A stretch of DNA of 64,000 bases from Verrucomicrobiales bacterium (GTDB lineage Bacteria > Verrucomicrobiota > Verrucomicrobiia > Limisphaerales > UBA11320). Positions 8,064 to 20,446 of this stretch are shown here, in pieces (position 1 is the first letter of the stretch; each line of letters opens with the position of its first letter). Location of the stretch: NCBI GenBank assembly GCA_016793885.1, contig JAEUHE010000249.1, forward strand, positions 1 to 64,000, in the 5' to 3' direction. The position numbers and the translations under genes are program-made. The notes below the pieces were generated by a model, which saw only the letters and a program-made list of their open reading frames with translations, did no database searches and was not told where the DNA came from.

Positions 8064-9062
8064 TCAGTCTAAATCGGTCGACTTTTGCCGGCGCCTCATG
8101 AGTTCCTTCCAGGTGGTCAGCTGGATGCCCCGCGCCTGGATGAGTTCGCGGACTTTCGGGTCGGTAAGCGCGGAGAGGTCAGCCTTTCGAGATTCGCTGG
8201 ACCCCGTAATGATGGGAAAGTCTTCCGTCGGCCGCGAAGCATGGAACAGGATTTCCGTCACCCCTGGTTTGAGATCGGAGAGCAAAGTCACCAGTCGTTC
8301 GGTTTTCTCGTTGGGCTTCCAGCCGTAGGATCCCGTGTGGAGGTCATCCAGTACCGGGAGCCCCCCATTCCATATCTTTCGGATCCATGGTTTGAGTTTG
8401 ATGGTCGCATCGGCGTTTTCGATCAGCGTGTGAGTCGAATGGCCGCCGACGGCAAGGATGGGAATCTTCTTCTCCAGGCCGACTTTCACGAACCGTTCAA
8501 AGTAATCGGGCCGCGCGAAGAGCGTGCCCATGTGGGAGTCCAGGTGGGTGATGGGCAGGCCCATGGTTTCAGCTCGATCCACCTGAGCGCGAATCTCTCG
8601 CTCGACCTCGTCGGCCGATGCCTTGGCTGCGACAGCAACGACGCTACGCCAGAGACAACCCTCGGGGTCCACCAGCCCCGGAACGGCGGGTTTGCCGGCC
8701 ACAGGACCCCAGCGGTACGGCGCCCACTCAGAAGTCAGCGTCAGGTGGAGTCCGCTGTCCACGTCGGGGTGATCCCGAAGGTAGCGGGCGATATCAGGCA
8801 CCCACGGGCAGGGCATCATCACCGCCCAGGAGGTCGCGACACCTTTCTCGACGGCTTCCACGGCTCCCAAGTTGGAGGGGCGAGACATGCCTACATCGTC
8901 CACATGCAAAATCACCACCACGGAGCCCGGTTTCCAGCCCAGACGCTCGGCAAACGTCATCTCCGCGGCGTGGGATGCGAGCGTGGTCCAGAGCATCATT
9001 AAGCAGGAGAATAGGCGGCTGCCACAAAAGGGTCGGACAGTCTTGGGACGGATGGTGCGCAT
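8064..9062 (-). CDS. Secreted YdjC/ChbG-family carbohydrate deacetylase
   Basis: The product is 332 residues with a leader (MRTIRPKTVRPFCGSRLFS..LASHAAE) that looks like a signal peptide. The core matches the YdjC/ChbG/HpnK deacetylase fold: VVILHVDDVGMSRPSN supplies the Asp-Asp metal site, SGLHLTLTSEW and THLDSHMGTLF the His ligands, and ILFHASRP a C-terminal conserved His. Family members remove acetyl groups from N-acetylated oligosaccharides such as chitobiose. ChbG itself is cytoplasmic, so a leader suggests work on extracellular sugars. The gene is divergent from the TetR operon with about 150 bp between. The exact substrate is unknown. Confidence 0.8.
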   Translation of the reverse strand: MRTIRPKTVRPFCGSRLFSCLMMLWTTLASHAAEMTFAERLGWKPGSVVVILHVDDVGMSRPSNLGAVEAVEKGVATSWAVMMPCPWVPDIARYLRDHPDVDSGLHLTLTSEWAPYRWGPVAGKPAVPGLVDPEGCLWRSVVAVAAKASADEVEREIRAQVDRAETMGLPITHLDSHMGTLFARPDYFERFVKVGLEKKIPILAVGGHSTHTLIENADATIKLKPWIRKIWNGGLPVLDDLHTGSYGWKPNEKTERLVTLLSDLKPGVTEILFHASRPTEDFPIITGSSESRKADLSALTDPKVRELIQARGIQLTTWKELMRRRQKSTDLD

Positions 9063-13073: not shown

Positions 13074-13105
13074 TTGACAATCCCCTGGGGGGGGGGGGGT
13101 AGATT
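13074..13105 (+). promoter_or_regulatory. Promoter with G13 homopolymer in the spacer
   Basis: A perfect -35 TTGACA (13074-13079) and a plausible -10 TAGATT (13100-13105) are separated by 20 bp, of which 13 are an unbroken run of G (13087-13099). The optimum spacing is about 17 bp, so losing two to four G by slipped-strand mispairing would strengthen the promoter. This is the architecture of phase-variable promoters such as Neisseria porA. It lies 27-70 bp ahead of the possible starts of the first beta-helix gene. The tract is seen directly; the switching is inference. Confidence 0.6.
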
Positions 13106-13173
13106 CAAAGCAGATAGTGAGGTATTAGTGCATGAGCTGGACATCAATAGTCCGCTCACAAATTCAAACGCAC

Positions 13174-15774
13174 ATGTCGCTCTTACAATCATTGCTTCAA
13201 GATCCTGCGCCGATGGACGTCTACATCGCGCTTCGCGATGATGGCGCGATGGGATCTGGAGTCGAGGCTGATCCCTGGAATGGCGGTCTCCAGAATTCGG
13301 TCGAGTATTCCCTTTCTGCGGGAGGTTTCTCGGTGGATAAGGTGACAAGCGCTCCGAGCACGATTGTGACGGTGACACTCACCAATCATCCATTCCTGAC
13401 CAACGATATAGTGTTGATCAAAGGCATTGAGGGAGGGGATGGCGAGCTCTACAATGGGTCCTTCATCGTCACCAAACTGGGTGCCAATTCCTTCAAATAC
13501 ACCGTGCTGAGTGTCGCTCCGGGCAATACCCAACCAACCGGATCCCCTACGGGGTCGAATATCAAATGTCAGTTGGACCCCTATCGGTTCGATGCGCTGA
13601 TGCGCAGTCTTCCGACCGATAAACCAGTCACGGTCCACTTAGGACCGGGTGTCTTTCTGACTAAGGGCTATGAGGAAACCTTTCGAGGACAAGTCAGCTG
13701 GAAGCCATTTAGTGGTCTGAAGATTCGGGGTTCCGGGATGGCGTTGACCACACTAAAACTGGCCAGTGCAACGTACCGTTATCTCCACTACTATGTGGTT
13801 GGCATGCCGGGGCTCTTTTCGTCGTCCCCTGTGCTTGAAAATTTTGAAATTACTGAGTGTTCGATTGACTGCGATATCTCAAATCAGCCTGCACAGAATA
13901 TTACCTGTGGCGCTGTCTTTATTCGAGGTAGTTATACCTTGGTGCGTCGAGTCCGATGCATCAACTTTGGGCGGCAGGGAGTCCCGGCTTACACACCCGA
14001 GTGCTTTGTCATCAACGTAGGAGGGGCTAGCTACCAGAACGCTGGGGGCAAATACATTACTCAGGGTTGTGTCGTTGAGGAATGCATGATCGAGAGCCCA
14101 GGCCTCAACAACGTCAAAGAGGCCACGCTCATTAATACGGCGGGAGGCGATACCCCTGCGAACGCAACGTCCGGCTTTCTCTTCGCTCGGTCGATAGGCA
14201 CGGTGATCCGGAATAACTATATCAACTGCGAATATCAGACCAATCCGGTAGCGATCGCAAGCATCACCAAAGGTATTTTTTCTGGAGGTTCTGTTGAGAT
14301 GACCGTCATCACCTCAAATCCTCATGGTCTGAGTGCGGGAAAGTTTGTTCGAATCGCTGGGGTTGCCGTCACGTCTGGTGCTCCTGCCGGAGACATCTAC
14401 AACAATCCCTACAACGGCTCCTTCGCCGTCACCTCGTCCAGTGGGCTCTACCAATTCAAGTATGAGACCGAGGTCGCTTCGGACCCTACCAGCCCTGATG
14501 TCATTCAACTTGGGTTGTGGGTGGGTAGGTTTTCGAGTCACTACGTCAACATCAGCAGTCTTGCTGGGCTCACCAATCCGAGCGGCACTGTGTGGCAGAT
14601 GACTGTGACCACGGCAACGCCGCATTTCTTGATTCCGTGGGACCGACTCACCGCTCCATCTCCCGTGCCAGGAAGCGTGGTGGTGATCAGTGGATTCAGT
14701 GTGGCGTCCAATCTCAACGGTGTATGGTATGTTGACTCACGCTCGACAGCCAAGTCATTCGTCTGTTCCCGCGACTACTCAGGGGGCTCGCCTCCTTCCA
14801 TCGCCGGCAGCATCGGGGATGGGATCATCGGGATTAGGCTCCAGGGCGTAGGGGACGGGGCAATTGTCGAGGGCAACCAGATCCGAAACTGCACTTTCGG
14901 GGGACCCTACATTGATACTTATGGCGTTCCCGAGATTGTCATCCGGAACAATCTTTATAGCGGCGTGCGGAGAGGTCCATTCCAGTCCCTCGAGCAACCG
15001 GTGGGGACTGTGGTGAGCCAGCGGATCACTTTAACTTGGGTGAGCCGGACTTCTGGAACTCTGGTGACCTTTACCACCAAATCGGGTCTCCCCCATGGAT
15101 TGGGAGTTGGTCAGGGCTTATTGGTCCAGGATACCAAAAACTCGCTTGGCGGGTTGATCGACGAATACAACCGCTCCTTTAAGGTTTTCGAAGTGATCAG
15201 CGCCACTAATTTTACGATCGTTTTGGATGCTGTTCCTCTAACAGATCCCGACAATAGCAAAACTCCGACGATCTCGATGGAGTATCTTTGGGAAACCGTT
15301 CGCTGTGTTGTCGAAAAAAATGTCATCGAGCTTGTTCCGGGCGTCAAGGGGGCAGGTGGAGCAAGCCATGGGATTAATTTTGATGGGACAATCCCCGCGC
15401 GATACTTCAACTCCCCCCCTTGGCCCCCGGCAAATCGAGTGTTCTGGAGATTTCGTCAAATCGAAGTCAGGAACAACACGATTCGGTATGCCTCCGATGC
15501 ATTCGGCAATCCTTTACCAGGAGATGCGGTTTACGAAAGCGCTGTCTCCAACGTTCTGGCGCAAACGGCTCGTGTGTTTGACAATATCGTGGACATCAAA
15601 TTGGATGCCGCTCCCGACACACCTCTCAAGCACTTGAACTGCGGCAGTGTTACCTACTTTAACAACCGAACCTCCGCCGGCGAGCTCGTCCAAGGCTGGC
15701 TGCAAGGTTCAGTTCAGAGACTGCCGGAGTTATCCACCCTCATCGATGATGCCCTTACCATGTCCTTTTTATGA
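13174..15774 (+). CDS. Tailspike-like right-handed beta-helix protein with four HGL modules
   Basis: From ATG 13174 the protein is 866 residues; an ATG at 13132 would add 14. The later start is preferred because MSLLQSLLQDP..VYIALR aligns with the N-terminus of the paralogue at 16802 (MSLLDALLLDP..VWVALR). After it comes a pectate-lyase-like beta-helix (KIRGSGMALTTLKL, FEITECSIDCDI, IRNNYINC, VIRNNLYSG). Four copies of a small module interrupt it, of the form (P)HGL-x-G-x-V-x-I-x-G..YNGSF-x-V, at about 13357-13510, 14290-14485, 14575-14780 and 15040-15280. This module type occurs in phage tail and surface proteins. There is no signal peptide. The C-terminus (YFNNRTSAGELVQG..DDALTMSFL) is also shared with the paralogue. 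A carbohydrate-binding or cleaving spike is inferred. Confidence 0.7.
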   Translation: MSLLQSLLQDPAPMDVYIALRDDGAMGSGVEADPWNGGLQNSVEYSLSAGGFSVDKVTSAPSTIVTVTLTNHPFLTNDIVLIKGIEGGDGELYNGSFIVTKLGANSFKYTVLSVAPGNTQPTGSPTGSNIKCQLDPYRFDALMRSLPTDKPVTVHLGPGVFLTKGYEETFRGQVSWKPFSGLKIRGSGMALTTLKLASATYRYLHYYVVGMPGLFSSSPVLENFEITECSIDCDISNQPAQNITCGAVFIRGSYTLVRRVRCINFGRQGVPAYTPECFVINVGGASYQNAGGKYITQGCVVEECMIESPGLNNVKEATLINTAGGDTPANATSGFLFARSIGTVIRNNYINCEYQTNPVAIASITKGIFSGGSVEMTVITSNPHGLSAGKFVRIAGVAVTSGAPAGDIYNNPYNGSFAVTSSSGLYQFKYETEVASDPTSPDVIQLGLWVGRFSSHYVNISSLAGLTNPSGTVWQMTVTTATPHFLIPWDRLTAPSPVPGSVVVISGFSVASNLNGVWYVDSRSTAKSFVCSRDYSGGSPPSIAGSIGDGIIGIRLQGVGDGAIVEGNQIRNCTFGGPYIDTYGVPEIVIRNNLYSGVRRGPFQSLEQPVGTVVSQRITLTWVSRTSGTLVTFTTKSGLPHGLGVGQGLLVQDTKNSLGGLIDEYNRSFKVFEVISATNFTIVLDAVPLTDPDNSKTPTISMEYLWETVRCVVEKNVIELVPGVKGAGGASHGINFDGTIPARYFNSPPWPPANRVFWRFRQIEVRNNTIRYASDAFGNPLPGDAVYESAVSNVLAQTARVFDNIVDIKLDAAPDTPLKHLNCGSVTYFNNRTSAGELVQGWLQGSVQRLPELSTLIDDALTMSFL

Positions 15775-16760
15775 CTCGTTTGTTCTGCAGAATAGAATTA
15801 CTGGCGGGCCTCTTAGCAGGTTCCCTAGTATATAGTAGCCAAGCGCGGCCTGCTGTACCCGACCTTCACTTGTTTGCCGTACCTGAGCTATGGGAGACCA
15901 ATAAGTCGCGGCAAGTTTCAAGGACTCCTTTCGGAAATGTCAAATCGGGGGTTGGGTTAACCTCGGTGCGGTATCAGCAGGTTTACGCCGCGTCGGAGTT
16001 TGGTAAAGTGCCCGAAGGTGGCGCCTTTCTCAGTCGCATCGACATTCGAGGAGGCTGCGGTGGCGCGAATGCAGCCTTCATCACGAACCTTGTGGTAAAA
16101 CTTTCGACCACGCATCGTGGCCCTGATCAGCTAAGTTCGATATTTTCAGAGAATTCTGGTTCTGACGAGGTTGTGGCTTTTCGGGCGGAGACCTGGCTTG
16201 CTCGGGGGGACACTGGCCCTTGTGATTTCATTCCGCCCAGAGGAGAGCCTGGCGTAGATTGGGTTTCACCAATGTACTTTAACCCCGCTCTATTCTATGA
16301 TCCACGCAAAGGCAACCTCCTGCTCGACCTCACTGTTCCTGAACCGCGACTCGACGTGGAGGACTACAACGAATTTCCCCTCTTTAGTGAGGTGGTTGCA
16401 ACGGCAGGGGACGCATTGTCTCGGGTCGCGGCGGCGGACATGAACGCTGTCGAAGCTGATCTTGTAGATTCAGCTGGACTCGTGGCTTTGTTTTGGTTTG
16501 CTCCGCTGCCCCAGCTCTATGTCAGTTCCGAGACCAACGGCATCCAACTGGTTTGGAGCACCGATCCCCGCCAAAGCCGTCTCCAGGTGAGCACACAAGT
16601 CGGAGCTGAGTCCGTTTGGAAGGATTTCCCTGCTGATCACGGCAATGATCAGTTTTGGCGTGTAGTGACTGTCCCGTCTGACCAGTTGACCAAGCAGCAA
16701 TTCTTCCGGCTCTGCTTAGAGACTACCAGCTCCGGAGGCTCTGCCGCTGGTTTGAAATAA
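15771..16760 (+). CDS. Secreted protein of unknown function in the beta-helix island
   Basis: This 329-residue protein begins with a signal peptide (MTRLFCRIELLAGLLAGSLVYSSQARPA). Its start overlaps the stop of the beta-helix gene (ATGA at 15771), so the two are translationally coupled. The body has the segment RYQQVYAASEFGKVPEGGAF and a beta-rich domain, and the last 90 residues (LYVSSETNGIQLVWS..FFRLCLE) resemble the closing segment seen in other secreted proteins of this genome. I do not recognise a catalytic motif. It is the only member of the island with an obvious export signal, so it may be the partner that meets the beta-helix proteins outside the cytoplasm (inference). Confidence 0.65.
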   Translation: MTRLFCRIELLAGLLAGSLVYSSQARPAVPDLHLFAVPELWETNKSRQVSRTPFGNVKSGVGLTSVRYQQVYAASEFGKVPEGGAFLSRIDIRGGCGGANAAFITNLVVKLSTTHRGPDQLSSIFSENSGSDEVVAFRAETWLARGDTGPCDFIPPRGEPGVDWVSPMYFNPALFYDPRKGNLLLDLTVPEPRLDVEDYNEFPLFSEVVATAGDALSRVAAADMNAVEADLVDSAGLVALFWFAPLPQLYVSSETNGIQLVWSTDPRQSRLQVSTQVGAESVWKDFPADHGNDQFWRVVTVPSDQLTKQQFFRLCLETTSSGGSAAGLK

Positions 16761-16801
16761 CGCAGCGCAAAACAACCCAATCCCGTCTCGAATCTTAAGG
16801 T

Positions 16802-18235
16802 ATGTCATTGCTCGATGCTCTGCTACTCGATCCTCCACGCTTGAACGTTTGGGTAGCGTTGCGAAATTATTCCATAAGCCTTGGGATTTTAGGGAGTGGA
16901 ACCCAGACGGATCCATATACGGTGGTCACGGCTTCCGACTTCGATTCGCTCATGCGGGATACCACCCGAATTCCGAACACAACGTGTGTGCACCTCGGAC
17001 CTGCTCCTGCAAACGCTCCTTTCCTTACAGCGGGTTATTACGATGGGTTGACCGGTTCCGGTTGGCAGGCCAGGCCAGGGATGCGCATCGTGGGTTCTGG
17101 GATCGACGTGACGGTCCTCAAACTCGTGAATACCACTGCTTCGAAGAACATTTATGCCGTTGCCCATGACTCGACGACTGGAGCCACGGTGGATTTTTTT
17201 GAGATCAGTGAGTTGACAATTCACGCCAATTTTTCCGGAGCAGGTACCAGCGCCAGTTCGTTCGGCGCCGTTCGAATTATGGGTAGCCATTCCCGCATCG
17301 TGCGCGTCAAAGCGATAGACTGGGGGAACAAGTGGACGGGTGGCCGTGTAGGCTACGTTTTCGCGATGCTCAGTGGAAACGGGACCTTAACTCCTGCAAA
17401 CCCGGTGGTCAATTGCGGCATCCAAGAGTGCATTGCCGTCAACCCGGCATCATCGGCAAGCTGGACAAATCACATGGCGGTCTTCCACGTCGGCAATACC
17501 GAGTTGCCCGGAGGGACTCCCGCCTATTGTGCGGCCCCGTATATCCGTAACAACTTTGTGGACGCAGGTCAGAACCCGTTGACGGACGGGGCTCCCGCCA
17601 ACTATTTTCGGGGCCTTTCGATGGCGTGGTGCAAGGCCGGGGTTGTCGAAGGCAACTTGGTTCAAAATATCTACTACGGCGGTCCTTACAATGCGTATCC
17701 CGCCCAAGACGTCACCATAAGGTTCAACACCTATCGAAATGTGGCGGTGGGTCCGATCTACAACTTCGGAACCGCTGGAAGCATGAGGTTGCTCATCGAA
17801 GGTAACCAGATCGAGCTCACCAAAGTGAATGTGACACCAATCACCGGCGTAGGCTCCGTCTTCGGATATGGTGTCATCCTCTACAACGCTTCGACCGGAT
17901 CAATGCCATATGGGAGTGTCGTCGTCCGGAACAACTGGATCAAGAACTTCGATGAGGGTTCTCTCGGTTTAAATCCCGCTGGTGGCACTTTCCTGTACGG
18001 GGCTTCCAATCTGCTGGTTCGAGAGAATGTGTTGGACGTCAGCGCCGCAGTCACACAGCAAATGATGAATCGTGATTGTACGAATGTGCAGTATTTCGAG
18101 AACCGAAATCCCGCTGGTGTCCTCATTCAAGGGGTGCGGGCTACGGGTGCGGTGACTTATGACAAAGTCTACACGGAACTTGCGACCGACGCGGATGATG
18201 CCTTGATATTGTCGCTTTTGCGTCACCGAGCCTGA
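16802..18235 (+). CDS. Tailspike-like beta-helix protein, short paralogue
   Basis: This 477-residue protein is a paralogue of the one at 13174. It shares the N-terminal MSLLDALLLDPPRLNVWVALR, the FDSLMRD..VHLGP block, the MRIVGSGIDVTVLKL rung and the C-terminal YFENRNPAGVLIQG..DDALILSLL. Its helix rungs include FEISELTIHANF, VVEGNLVQNIYYGG, TIRFNTYRNV and VVRNNWIKNF. It lacks the four HGL modules of its larger relative. No signal peptide is visible. It follows the secreted protein by 41 bp, with AAGG just before the ATG. The common ends with variable middles suggest modular evolution like phage tailspikes; a lyase or hydrolase activity is possible but no active site is identified. Confidence 0.72.
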   Translation: MSLLDALLLDPPRLNVWVALRNYSISLGILGSGTQTDPYTVVTASDFDSLMRDTTRIPNTTCVHLGPAPANAPFLTAGYYDGLTGSGWQARPGMRIVGSGIDVTVLKLVNTTASKNIYAVAHDSTTGATVDFFEISELTIHANFSGAGTSASSFGAVRIMGSHSRIVRVKAIDWGNKWTGGRVGYVFAMLSGNGTLTPANPVVNCGIQECIAVNPASSASWTNHMAVFHVGNTELPGGTPAYCAAPYIRNNFVDAGQNPLTDGAPANYFRGLSMAWCKAGVVEGNLVQNIYYGGPYNAYPAQDVTIRFNTYRNVAVGPIYNFGTAGSMRLLIEGNQIELTKVNVTPITGVGSVFGYGVILYNASTGSMPYGSVVVRNNWIKNFDEGSLGLNPAGGTFLYGASNLLVRENVLDVSAAVTQQMMNRDCTNVQYFENRNPAGVLIQGVRATGAVTYDKVYTELATDADDALILSLLRHRA

Positions 18236-18337
18236 TCGAATAGTCGCTGGCCAGCGGGCACGGCCTTTGGTCGCTGGATCGGATTTGCAGCGGTGCAGAA
18301 CTCTTTCTTTCATAAACAAACCATCCTAGAACAGCCT

Positions 18338-18679
18338 ATGGCAACAAATATCAAAATTCTCAACGCGCTGACACCCGGAGTGATGACCCTGACCACTTCG
18401 AGTAGTACGACCGTATACACGGCCGCCTCCCCGAAATCAGCATTGGTGTCTGGAGTCGCCATTTATAATAACTCGACAACAGCTGTGAATGTGAGCCTGC
18501 TGCGAGGGACTGCCACGATCTTCAAAACGAAGACAATTCTGCAACCCTCAACCTCAGAGCTTATGAGTGACGTGGTGGAACTGGCCTCGGGGGAGGCGTT
18601 GAATGCTCAAGCTTCTCCAACACCTTCGGGTGGCAATGCCGCGGTCACCGTATTGCTGTTTGGTATCGAAAGAGACTAA
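18338..18679 (+). CDS. Small phage-virion-like beta protein
   Basis: The frame gives 113 residues from ATG 18338 (MATNIKILNALTPGVMTLTT). The layout is a short N-terminal K-I-L-x-x-L-x-P start, a T-x-Y-T-A strand, a VSGVAIYNNSTTAVNVSLL strand and a final aromatic strand (VTVLLFGIERD). This matches small accessory virion proteins of tailed phages that sit near tail-fibre genes. It lies 102 bp after the second beta-helix gene and pairs with the similar protein at 18711. An upstream in-frame start at 18293 would add 15 residues without a clear reason. Homology is by pattern only; the structural role is inference. Confidence 0.55.
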   Translation: MATNIKILNALTPGVMTLTTSSSTTVYTAASPKSALVSGVAIYNNSTTAVNVSLLRGTATIFKTKTILQPSTSELMSDVVELASGEALNAQASPTPSGGNAAVTVLLFGIERD

Positions 18680-18710
18680 CTTTGCGAAAGAATCCCCCCC
18701 CTTCTATACC

Positions 18711-19031
18711 ATGCCATTTATCTTCAAGACCCTTGGGACACCGCTTACCGGTGCGTCAGGCCTGAACACCATCTATACTGTCCAGGCACCTGCGACATCC
18801 GCGATCGTAAGTAATATTCGACTTTATAGCGCCGCTGGAACCAATGTGGATCTGTATTTTCTTAAGGACGCAGCCGCTACACCTGGAGTGCCTTTTGCAC
18901 GGGTATCGTGTGGTGCAGCTGCCTCAGGAATTTTTCAAGGCGAAATCACTTTGAGTCTTGGTAACATTATTAAAGCGAGCTCCTCAGCGGCGACGTATGA
19001 CGTTACGGCCTTTGGAGCTGAACGCGTTTAA
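18711..19031 (+). CDS. Small phage-virion-like beta protein, second copy type
   Basis: The product is 106 residues (MPFIFKTLGTPLTGASGLNT) with the same order of strands as the protein at 18338: T-x-Y-T-V, then AIVSNIRLYSAAGTNVDLYF, and a closing VTAFGAERV. The two are distant relatives, not copies. A run of eight C (18694-18701) lies ten bases ahead of the ATG where a ribosome-binding site would be expected, which may affect translation. It is likely a surface or particle component working with the beta-helix proteins; this is inference from similarity to phage proteins and from position. Confidence 0.52.
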   Translation: MPFIFKTLGTPLTGASGLNTIYTVQAPATSAIVSNIRLYSAAGTNVDLYFLKDAAATPGVPFARVSCGAAASGIFQGEITLSLGNIIKASSSAATYDVTAFGAERV

Positions 19032-19085
19032 GCAGGCATTTCAGTTTGCTCGGCATCAAACGTACGGAGTTAACTCTATACTGGC

Positions 19086-19274
19086 GTGAGCGGGACCATT
19101 GAGACTTGCACTGTTCAACTCTATCTCCCCGAGGCCACCATCAAGAGGCTCAGGTCTGTTGCATCCGATCCCCAAGAGTCGACCGTGTCTTGTGAGATGC
19201 CTGAAGCAGGTTGGTGGGAGGGCTGTCACATCAGTTCCTACGAGCCTGTGAACCTTAGGACCCAACGCGTTTGA
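19086..19274 (+). CDS. Possible small protein coupled to the glycosyltransferase
   Basis: A 62-codon frame from GTG 19086 ends in TGA at 19272-19274, overlapping the TTG start of the glycosyltransferase (TTGA), a typical coupling arrangement. The product (VQLYLPEATIKRLRSVA near the start, CEMPEAGWWEGCHI in the middle) has three Cys and no recognised domain. It could be a real small subunit or just leader sequence. Nothing else supports it. Confidence 0.3.
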   Translation: MSGTIETCTVQLYLPEATIKRLRSVASDPQESTVSCEMPEAGWWEGCHISSYEPVNLRTQRV

Positions 19275-20446
19275 ACCGCACTATCAGGATCTTGTGGGTC
19301 AGTGATAGCCCCCTTTTAGCGACCGGATTCGGCCGAGTGAGTCGTGAGTTGACCACAAGGCTTTCGAATAAACGGAGGCTTGAGGTAGCTGTGGTTGGAG
19401 TTGGGTACGATGGGTGGCCATACCCAACCTCGTCATATCCTCTCCGGATTTATCCTTCCTCCGCTGGTAGCCATGGTCAGGATGCCTTCGAGCGAGCTGT
19501 CAACGAATTCCAACCGCACCTTGTCATTAGTTTGGGTGAGATATGGATGTTACAGTGGATCCACACCCACGCCACAAGAAAAGGATTCAAATGGATTTCA
19601 TACCTTCCCCTGGATGCCGGGCCGCTTTATCCACCGTGGGAGTCCGTCCTGATGGGCATGGATGAAATCGTCTGCATGTCCGATTTTGGAAGGAACGTGT
19701 TACAAGCAGGCATTCCCTCCAAGCGATCTCACCTCATCTATCACGGCGTTGACACCGAGATCTTTCAACCCCTTCCAGACCGAGGTCAGATCAAGGCTCA
19801 TCCACGATTCCGGGACAAGTTCGTAATCGGCTGCGTGGCACGCAACCAACCGCGAAAGAATATCCCAGCGCTGGTGAAGGCTTTTGCGATGCTGGTAGAG
19901 AATTATGAGGATATGCACCTCTATCTCCACATGAATCCGTGCGATGTAGGACATGATATTGTGACGCTGTTTCGGAGGTATGGTTTGGAGGGAAAGGCAG
20001 ACGTGTGCGGCCCTGATTTCTCTTTGGATCGAGCGATACCAGACTCTCATCTCAATCGCATCTACAACCTGTTCGACATATTTGCACTGCCAAGCAACGC
20101 TGAGGGGTTTGGCCTTCCCATCATTGAAAGCCTTTCGGCCGGTATCCCCGTGGTTGCGACTGACTATAGTGCCTGCCCTGAACTGGTCAGGGGGAGAGGA
20201 GAACTGGCGAGGGTTCTAACAACTATCACCACGGGAATGAACATCGTGGAACACGCGGTGATCGACACTGACGACTTGGCGCGCTGCATCGAAAAGTTAT
20301 ACCTTGCCCCCGACTTGGTGCAAACCTACGGCAGAGCGGGGCGAGAATTTGCGCGGAAGTTGACGTGGGATAGTTTAGTCCCACAGTGGCTAGAAGTGAT
20401 AGGCCTGGCTTTAGGAGTCGACATGGATGAGCCGTCTACGGGATGA
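19271..20446 (+). CDS. GT4-family glycosyltransferase
   Basis: This 391-residue GT-B enzyme has the N-terminal ILWVSDSPLLATGFGRVSRE strand and glycine loop. The donor-binding half shows GCVARNQPRKNIPALVKAF, LPSNAEGFGLPIIESLSAG (the E-x7-E retaining motif region) and PVVATDYSACPELV. Retaining GT4 enzymes transfer a sugar from a nucleotide-sugar. The N-terminal SxSPLLATGFGR type is one I associate with phage and surface-glycosylation enzymes. The start codon is TTG, overlapping the small frame upstream. As the last gene of the island it may glycosylate the beta-helix or small beta proteins, or the cell surface they contact (inference). Confidence 0.85.
   Translation: MNRTIRILWVSDSPLLATGFGRVSRELTTRLSNKRRLEVAVVGVGYDGWPYPTSSYPLRIYPSSAGSHGQDAFERAVNEFQPHLVISLGEIWMLQWIHTHATRKGFKWISYLPLDAGPLYPPWESVLMGMDEIVCMSDFGRNVLQAGIPSKRSHLIYHGVDTEIFQPLPDRGQIKAHPRFRDKFVIGCVARNQPRKNIPALVKAFAMLVENYEDMHLYLHMNPCDVGHDIVTLFRRYGLEGKADVCGPDFSLDRAIPDSHLNRIYNLFDIFALPSNAEGFGLPIIESLSAGIPVVATDYSACPELVRGRGELARVLTTITTGMNIVEHAVIDTDDLARCIEKLYLAPDLVQTYGRAGREFARKLTWDSLVPQWLEVIGLALGVDMDEPSTG

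Follow-up and report, generated by a model that had tools for sequence, protein, structure and literature searches.

A conserved multi-copy operon of Limisphaerales with beta-helix and virion-like proteins and a candidate phase-variable promoter

Promoter switching through tracts of G or C is best known from host-associated pathogens. At the Neisseria fetA and porA promoters, a G or C tract lies between TTGACA and a -10-like box before a surface-type gene, the spacers scatter around a working length, and transcription of fetA is varied through the -35/-10 spacing (PMC5320596). The length of a C stretch also affects transcription from the Bordetella fim promoters (PMC1891110). Among proteins, the MAT fibres of Bdellovibrio bacteriovorus are a multi-copy bacterial family related to phage tail fibres, with a signal peptide and with beta-helix parts and beta-sandwich tips in one chain (PMC10769870). 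Tailed phages have beta-helix tailspikes and small jelly-roll virion proteins (PHROG 529, 1276 and 16194; the phage KHP40 cement protein), with a PHROG 2170 glycosyltransferase as a neighbour, and the AlgE and AlgG epimerases and the RbmB lyase have the same beta-helix fold. The locus described here resembles each of these in part, and a search of the open-access literature returned no description of such an operon.

The locus is an island in the window (the whole stretch of 64,000 nucleotides that was analysed, from a Verrucomicrobiales bacterium) and runs from a promoter to the end of a GT4 glycosyltransferase gene (Table 1). An earlier note on this DNA listed six genes, all of which are found where it placed them, and its start coordinate is exactly the TTGACA of the promoter. 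Added to its list are the small ORF G, the G13 tract in the promoter and further copies in the same genome. Genes A and B overlap by 4 bp, as do G and F, and the remaining intergenic gaps are 31-102 bp, giving a layout as in an operon. The GC content of the island is 52-55% against 59-64% in its flanks, and its GC3 runs at 0.43-0.62, compared with 0.72-0.79 for four further genes in the window. A C8 run at 18694-18701, between D and E and 9 nt before the start of E, is a possible further slippage site.

Table 1. Features of the island at 13074-20446, in window coordinates
Feature	Position	Strand	Remarks
Candidate phase-variable promoter	13074-13105	+	upstream of A
-35 element TTGACA	13074-13079	+	followed by ATCCCCT
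G13 tract	13087-13099	+	between -35 and -10
-10-like element TAGATT	13100-13105	+	spacer to -35 of 20 nt
Gene A, large beta-helix protein, 866 aa	13174-15774	+	ATG at 13174, in a frame that opens at 13132; signal peptide absent
Gene B, secreted protein, 329 aa	15771-16760	+	family with PEP-CTERM in sister cassettes
Gene C, beta-helix protein, 477 aa	16802-18235	+	paralogous to A, with both ends alike; signal peptide absent
Gene D, small jelly-roll-like protein, 113 aa	18338-18679	+	
Gene E, second member of the D family, 106 aa	18711-19031	+	
Small ORF G, 62 aa	19086-19274	+	GTG start; conserved GWWE motif; precedes F
Gene F, GT4 glycosyltransferase, 391 aa	19271-20446	+	PHROG 2170-like

Upstream of A the window reads TTGACA-ATCCCCT-G13-TAGATT, that is, TTGACA-N7-G13-TAGATT. 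The tract position, the surface-type gene behind it and the scatter of spacers around a working length are as at fetA and porA; unlike those cases, the candidate switch here would act on a seven-gene operon that is present in several copies in an environmental bacterium. A generic promoter scan covered spacers of 16-18, and the promoter at 13074 is missing from its list because a spacer of 20 falls outside that range. The same layout stands before A in copy C233 of the same genome (G12) and in copy C46 of the same-genus genome G002 (G13); in the genome's own copy C149 a G10 tract precedes A, with a less clear -10 box (spacer about 15). A pattern search of five family genomes (about 31 Mb) for TTGACA-N(2-14)-G9 returned exactly these four sites, each directly upstream of a cassette A gene, and the reversed control pattern had no site in the same genomes. 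In 475 kb of loci there are nine G or C runs of at least 10. Seven of these fall no more than 200 nt upstream of an A gene (binomial 4e-15, for a hypothesis formed post hoc), and the remaining two are near cassette fragments. Further tracts occur as C12 behind a common CCAGAGCTCTT sequence in copies C53 and C54 of G002 and as G12 in copy C56 of G256. The same promoter, but with a non-repetitive spacer of 18 nt (TTGACT-N18-TAGCAT), stands in one G256 copy, and a tract was not found before A in the genome's own C178, in G002 C18 or in G256 C103. A search for structured RNA gave no Rfam match.

The homopolymer thus stands in promoter position, and across the five family genomes the TTGACA/poly-G form is restricted to these operons. 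Tract length varies between loci from 10 to 13. Slippage at the tract would move the -35/-10 spacing into or out of its working range and so turn the whole operon on or off, and most cassette copies are probably switched at random in this way. Found here in Verrucomicrobiota MAGs, one of them from groundwater, and directed at a single operon, such a restricted layout suggests that the product is under strong, fluctuating selection. Two side observations concern the tracts. The G256 contigs C56 and C103 (starts of L102 and L103) both end in poly-G followed by CAG, and the two cassettes may therefore be tandem neighbours that the assembler split at the tract. In G002 C30 (L061:8556-9395), the Gly-rich gene of the cassette goes out of frame at a G9 run (8601-8609) and its conserved C-terminus continues in another frame, which makes the run either a candidate second switch, acting at translation, or a sign of decay.

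The island is one copy of a conserved multi-copy operon. The cassette order is A (beta-helix), B (signal peptide), C (beta-helix), D/E (small jelly-roll), in some copies Gly-rich, TPR or GT2 genes, and F (GT4), and it recurs between ordinary genes at about five places in the genome itself, in same-genus genomes and in two other Limisphaerales families. In its own genome (8.7 Mb), C233 carries A-B-C-D-E-F and another glycosyltransferase, C178 carries A-B-C-D-Glyrich-TPR-F, C154 carries C-D-E-F, broken off where the contig stops, and C149 carries A-B with a truncated C, so that some copies are decaying. Cassettes or parts of them are found in the same-genus genomes G001, G002 and G004, and G003 holds only more distant beta-helix relatives. 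Outside the family, G095 has B-C-D-E-F on a short contig and G256 has A-B-C-D-Glyrich-GT2-GT9, the GT9 being a putative label read from sequence. A sample of 388 genomes across the phylum gave, past 1e-20, only the genome itself and one weak match, so the cassette seems confined to the order Limisphaerales.

Two old cassette types can be told apart, type I with the window and C233 and type II with C178 and the G002 copies C53 and C54, whose B proteins have PEP-CTERM-like tails. C178 groups with C53 and C54 at 100% support in both the A and the C tree, and this agreement indicates joint inheritance of A and C. The gene after the neighbouring glycogen-debranching gene in G002 and G004 is a different conserved one, a transporter to judge by its sequence, so the cassette is absent from this place in both genomes. 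Joining C149 and C154 into one cassette was considered and rejected, since C149 has a truncated C of its own and no 15-mer is common to the contig ends. What look like similar IS-like ends adjoin C in both (3' end of L010 for C154, 5' end of L012 for C149). Terminal repeats of a mobile element were also rejected, there being only weak repeats around the island and no common sequence downstream of the cassettes.

The genes of the set occur together. All 14 matches of a D profile in the five family genomes are in cassettes, as are all 8 matches of an F profile at 1e-60 in 320 genomes of the order. Strong matches to C and to F overlap across 313 genomes with a hypergeometric P of 2.5e-10, or 4e-4 by genus, neither value being corrected for phylogeny. 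The copies are under purifying selection (dN/dS 0.08-0.17): D, E and F have ratios of 0.08-0.09 between the window and C154, and A and B have 0.14 and 0.17 between two G256 copies, all of them rough because dS is high. In the window and C154 pair the beta-helix is the fastest-diverging part, with 59% identity for C and 85% for F.

The pairing of A and C that the earlier note saw is borne out by an N-terminus common to both, MSLxxALLxDP, and by a common C-terminus. In fold, both resemble alginate epimerases and tailspikes. The model of C (pLDDT 76) has a right-handed beta-helix fold, with AlgE4 and RbmB as its top structural matches (Z about 30) and the Dettilon, Sf6 and HK620 tailspikes at Z 25-28, in a fold that is common to many enzymes. 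AlgE4, RbmB, the adhesin PfbA and the Dettilon tailspike lie within 2 Z units of one another, so the fold suits an enzyme, an adhesin and a tailspike alike. By tblastn against 50,697 phage records, C has no relative and A matches only a 170-residue tail-fibre segment, and IMG/VR scans with profiles A1, A7 and A2 gave no relative and no viral contig with relatives of A or C. The closest sequence relatives of both are bacterial. Signal peptides are present on more remote homologues in the same genus, and a bacterial origin of the beta-helix part is therefore possible; phage descent is not supported for A and C.

The small proteins tell a different story, and here the earlier note's likeness to virion proteins holds. 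D and E are homologous small beta-proteins. In BFVD the matches of the D model (pLDDT 82) are to proteins of tailed phages, several of which bear the name virion structural protein (E about 1e-6 to 1e-5, TM mostly 0.7-0.8). Its best match among solved structures is the phage KHP40 cement protein (Z 9.3, rmsd 2.8 over 105 residues), which stands only moderately above unrelated rows, the PDB fold matches being moderate in general. Small proteins of sister cassettes match PHROG 1276 and PHROG 16194, the latter a tail family. Another sister-cassette product, a GT2-TPR protein, shares 48% identity with one in jumbo phage Tunturi_5. The GWWE motif of ORF G also ends the TPR protein in sister cassettes. 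F is a phage-type GT4 enzyme, as noted before, matching the PHROG 2170 glycosyltransferase at 1.7e-41; an IMG/VR scan with profile A3 found distant phage glycosyltransferases only, and the examined stretches around PHROG 2170-type enzymes in phages (TJE1, S-CBS4, Mae-JY09, S-EIV1) hold no gene like B, C or D. B has the hydrophobic, signal-like N-terminus expected of a signal-peptide protein and is always found between A and C; PF07589, the PEP-CTERM family, is above cut-off in the C178 protein, weaker in L060 and absent in the window copy.

The earlier note called the locus a phage-tailspike-like surface island without a phage. The virion-like D and E stand, and the set proves to be conserved with no phage gene in the tested flanks, an outcome that the note had named as support for a system. 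A surface location stays conditional because A, C, D and E show no signal peptide, the N-termini of A and C being without a hydrophobic signal core. No phage was found either, for PHROG scans of flanking proteins at the window (seven proteins), C178 and both G256 loci gave no terminase, portal, capsid, tail or integrase. None of the five family genomes, which are incomplete, has Baseplate_J, and a control search detected it in 3 named genomes. We give very little probability to a decayed prophage, reduced to its tail module by loss of the head, packaging and lysis genes. The virion-like small proteins, the PHROG 2170 glycosyltransferase, the GC content below that of the flanks and the truncated C in one copy would fit such a remnant, but the same gene order persists across three families, dN/dS is far below 1 and neither the tested flanks nor, for Baseplate_J, the five genomes hold a structural phage gene. 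A decayed prophage was rejected on conservation, selection and flanks; the island is a conserved operon and not a phage remnant.

Two further readings take the operon as functional. It is unlikely that it modifies exopolysaccharide, in which case A and C would act as epimerases or lyases on the cell's own matrix polysaccharide, the glycosyltransferases would make the glycan, B would be a matrix protein and switching would vary the matrix. The AlgE4 and RbmB matches of C, a weak AlgG match and the PEP-CTERM of some B copies, a type that accompanies exopolysaccharide loci (PMC1569441), speak for this. Against it, C is 12-17% identical to AlgE, AlgG and RbmB, no A or C row of alignments A1, A2 and A7 holds DPHD/E, the active-site motif of alginate epimerases, polymerase, flippase and export genes were not found in the cassettes, A and C are without signal peptides, and D and E are left unexplained. 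Quite improbable is a device directed at phages, whose cytoplasmic virion-like parts would disturb an infecting phage, coat it or redirect it, or serve as decoys on lysis, with switching to limit the cost. It would make sense of virion-like D and E, of A, C, D and E without signal peptides and of glycosyltransferases related to ones among phage structural genes, and phage pressure is a known driver of phase variation (PMC8224891). It sits poorly with a secreted B that is always between A and C, with the lack of any PADLOC match to a known defence system and with the IMG/VR result for A and C.

The explanation we favour, at close to even confidence, is a multi-copy operon, probably phase-variable in most copies, for a glycosylated, spike- or fibre-like assembly that probably binds glycans. 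The beta-helix subunits A and C, the jelly-roll subunits D and E and the secreted partner B would come together in one assembly, which F, joined in sister cassettes by further glycosyltransferases, would glycosylate. B would be exported by Sec, with a PEP-CTERM tail in some copies. We infer that the products form one complex, that the assembly lies outside the cell and that it binds glycans; the export of A, C, D and E, for which a route was looked for and not found, is the weakest step of the proposal. Given several independent copies whose beta-helices diverge fast, each with a beta-helix surface of its own, the combinations of glycan-binding spikes on display in a population would change.

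Compared with what is described, the cassette is a variant of phase-variable surface-type operons, and its virion-like content is the unusual part. In the way proposed for it to work, it resembles phase-variable adhesin loci as well as the MAT fibres. It is like the MAT fibres in being a bacterial multi-copy family with a tail-fibre relationship, and the D model weakly matches the Bd2133 tip (PMC10769870). It was not filed with them because A and C lack the MAT signal peptide, and it differs further in having its parts on separate genes, in an operon with glycosyltransferases and a poly-G promoter. Unlike tailed phages, it has no virion, packaging or lysis genes. That it represents a new class of bacterial contingency system is a more doubtful proposition: operon copies that switch independently, partly virion-like and partly host-derived, would make and export a glycosylated spike complex as a variable glycan-recognition or decoy surface. 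With this operon, the retention and diversification of virion-like proteins by bacteria can be put to the test.

Relatives of the cassette proteins also occur away from the cassettes. At L064, L070 and L071, in the same genus, paired large secreted beta-helix proteins with signal peptides flank a third secreted protein; the pairs are distant relatives of A and C and form a sister gene set. Four B-like domains lie in a 1673-aa open frame at G000:C103:57096-60044, and another relative of B is found at C179:148017-148880.
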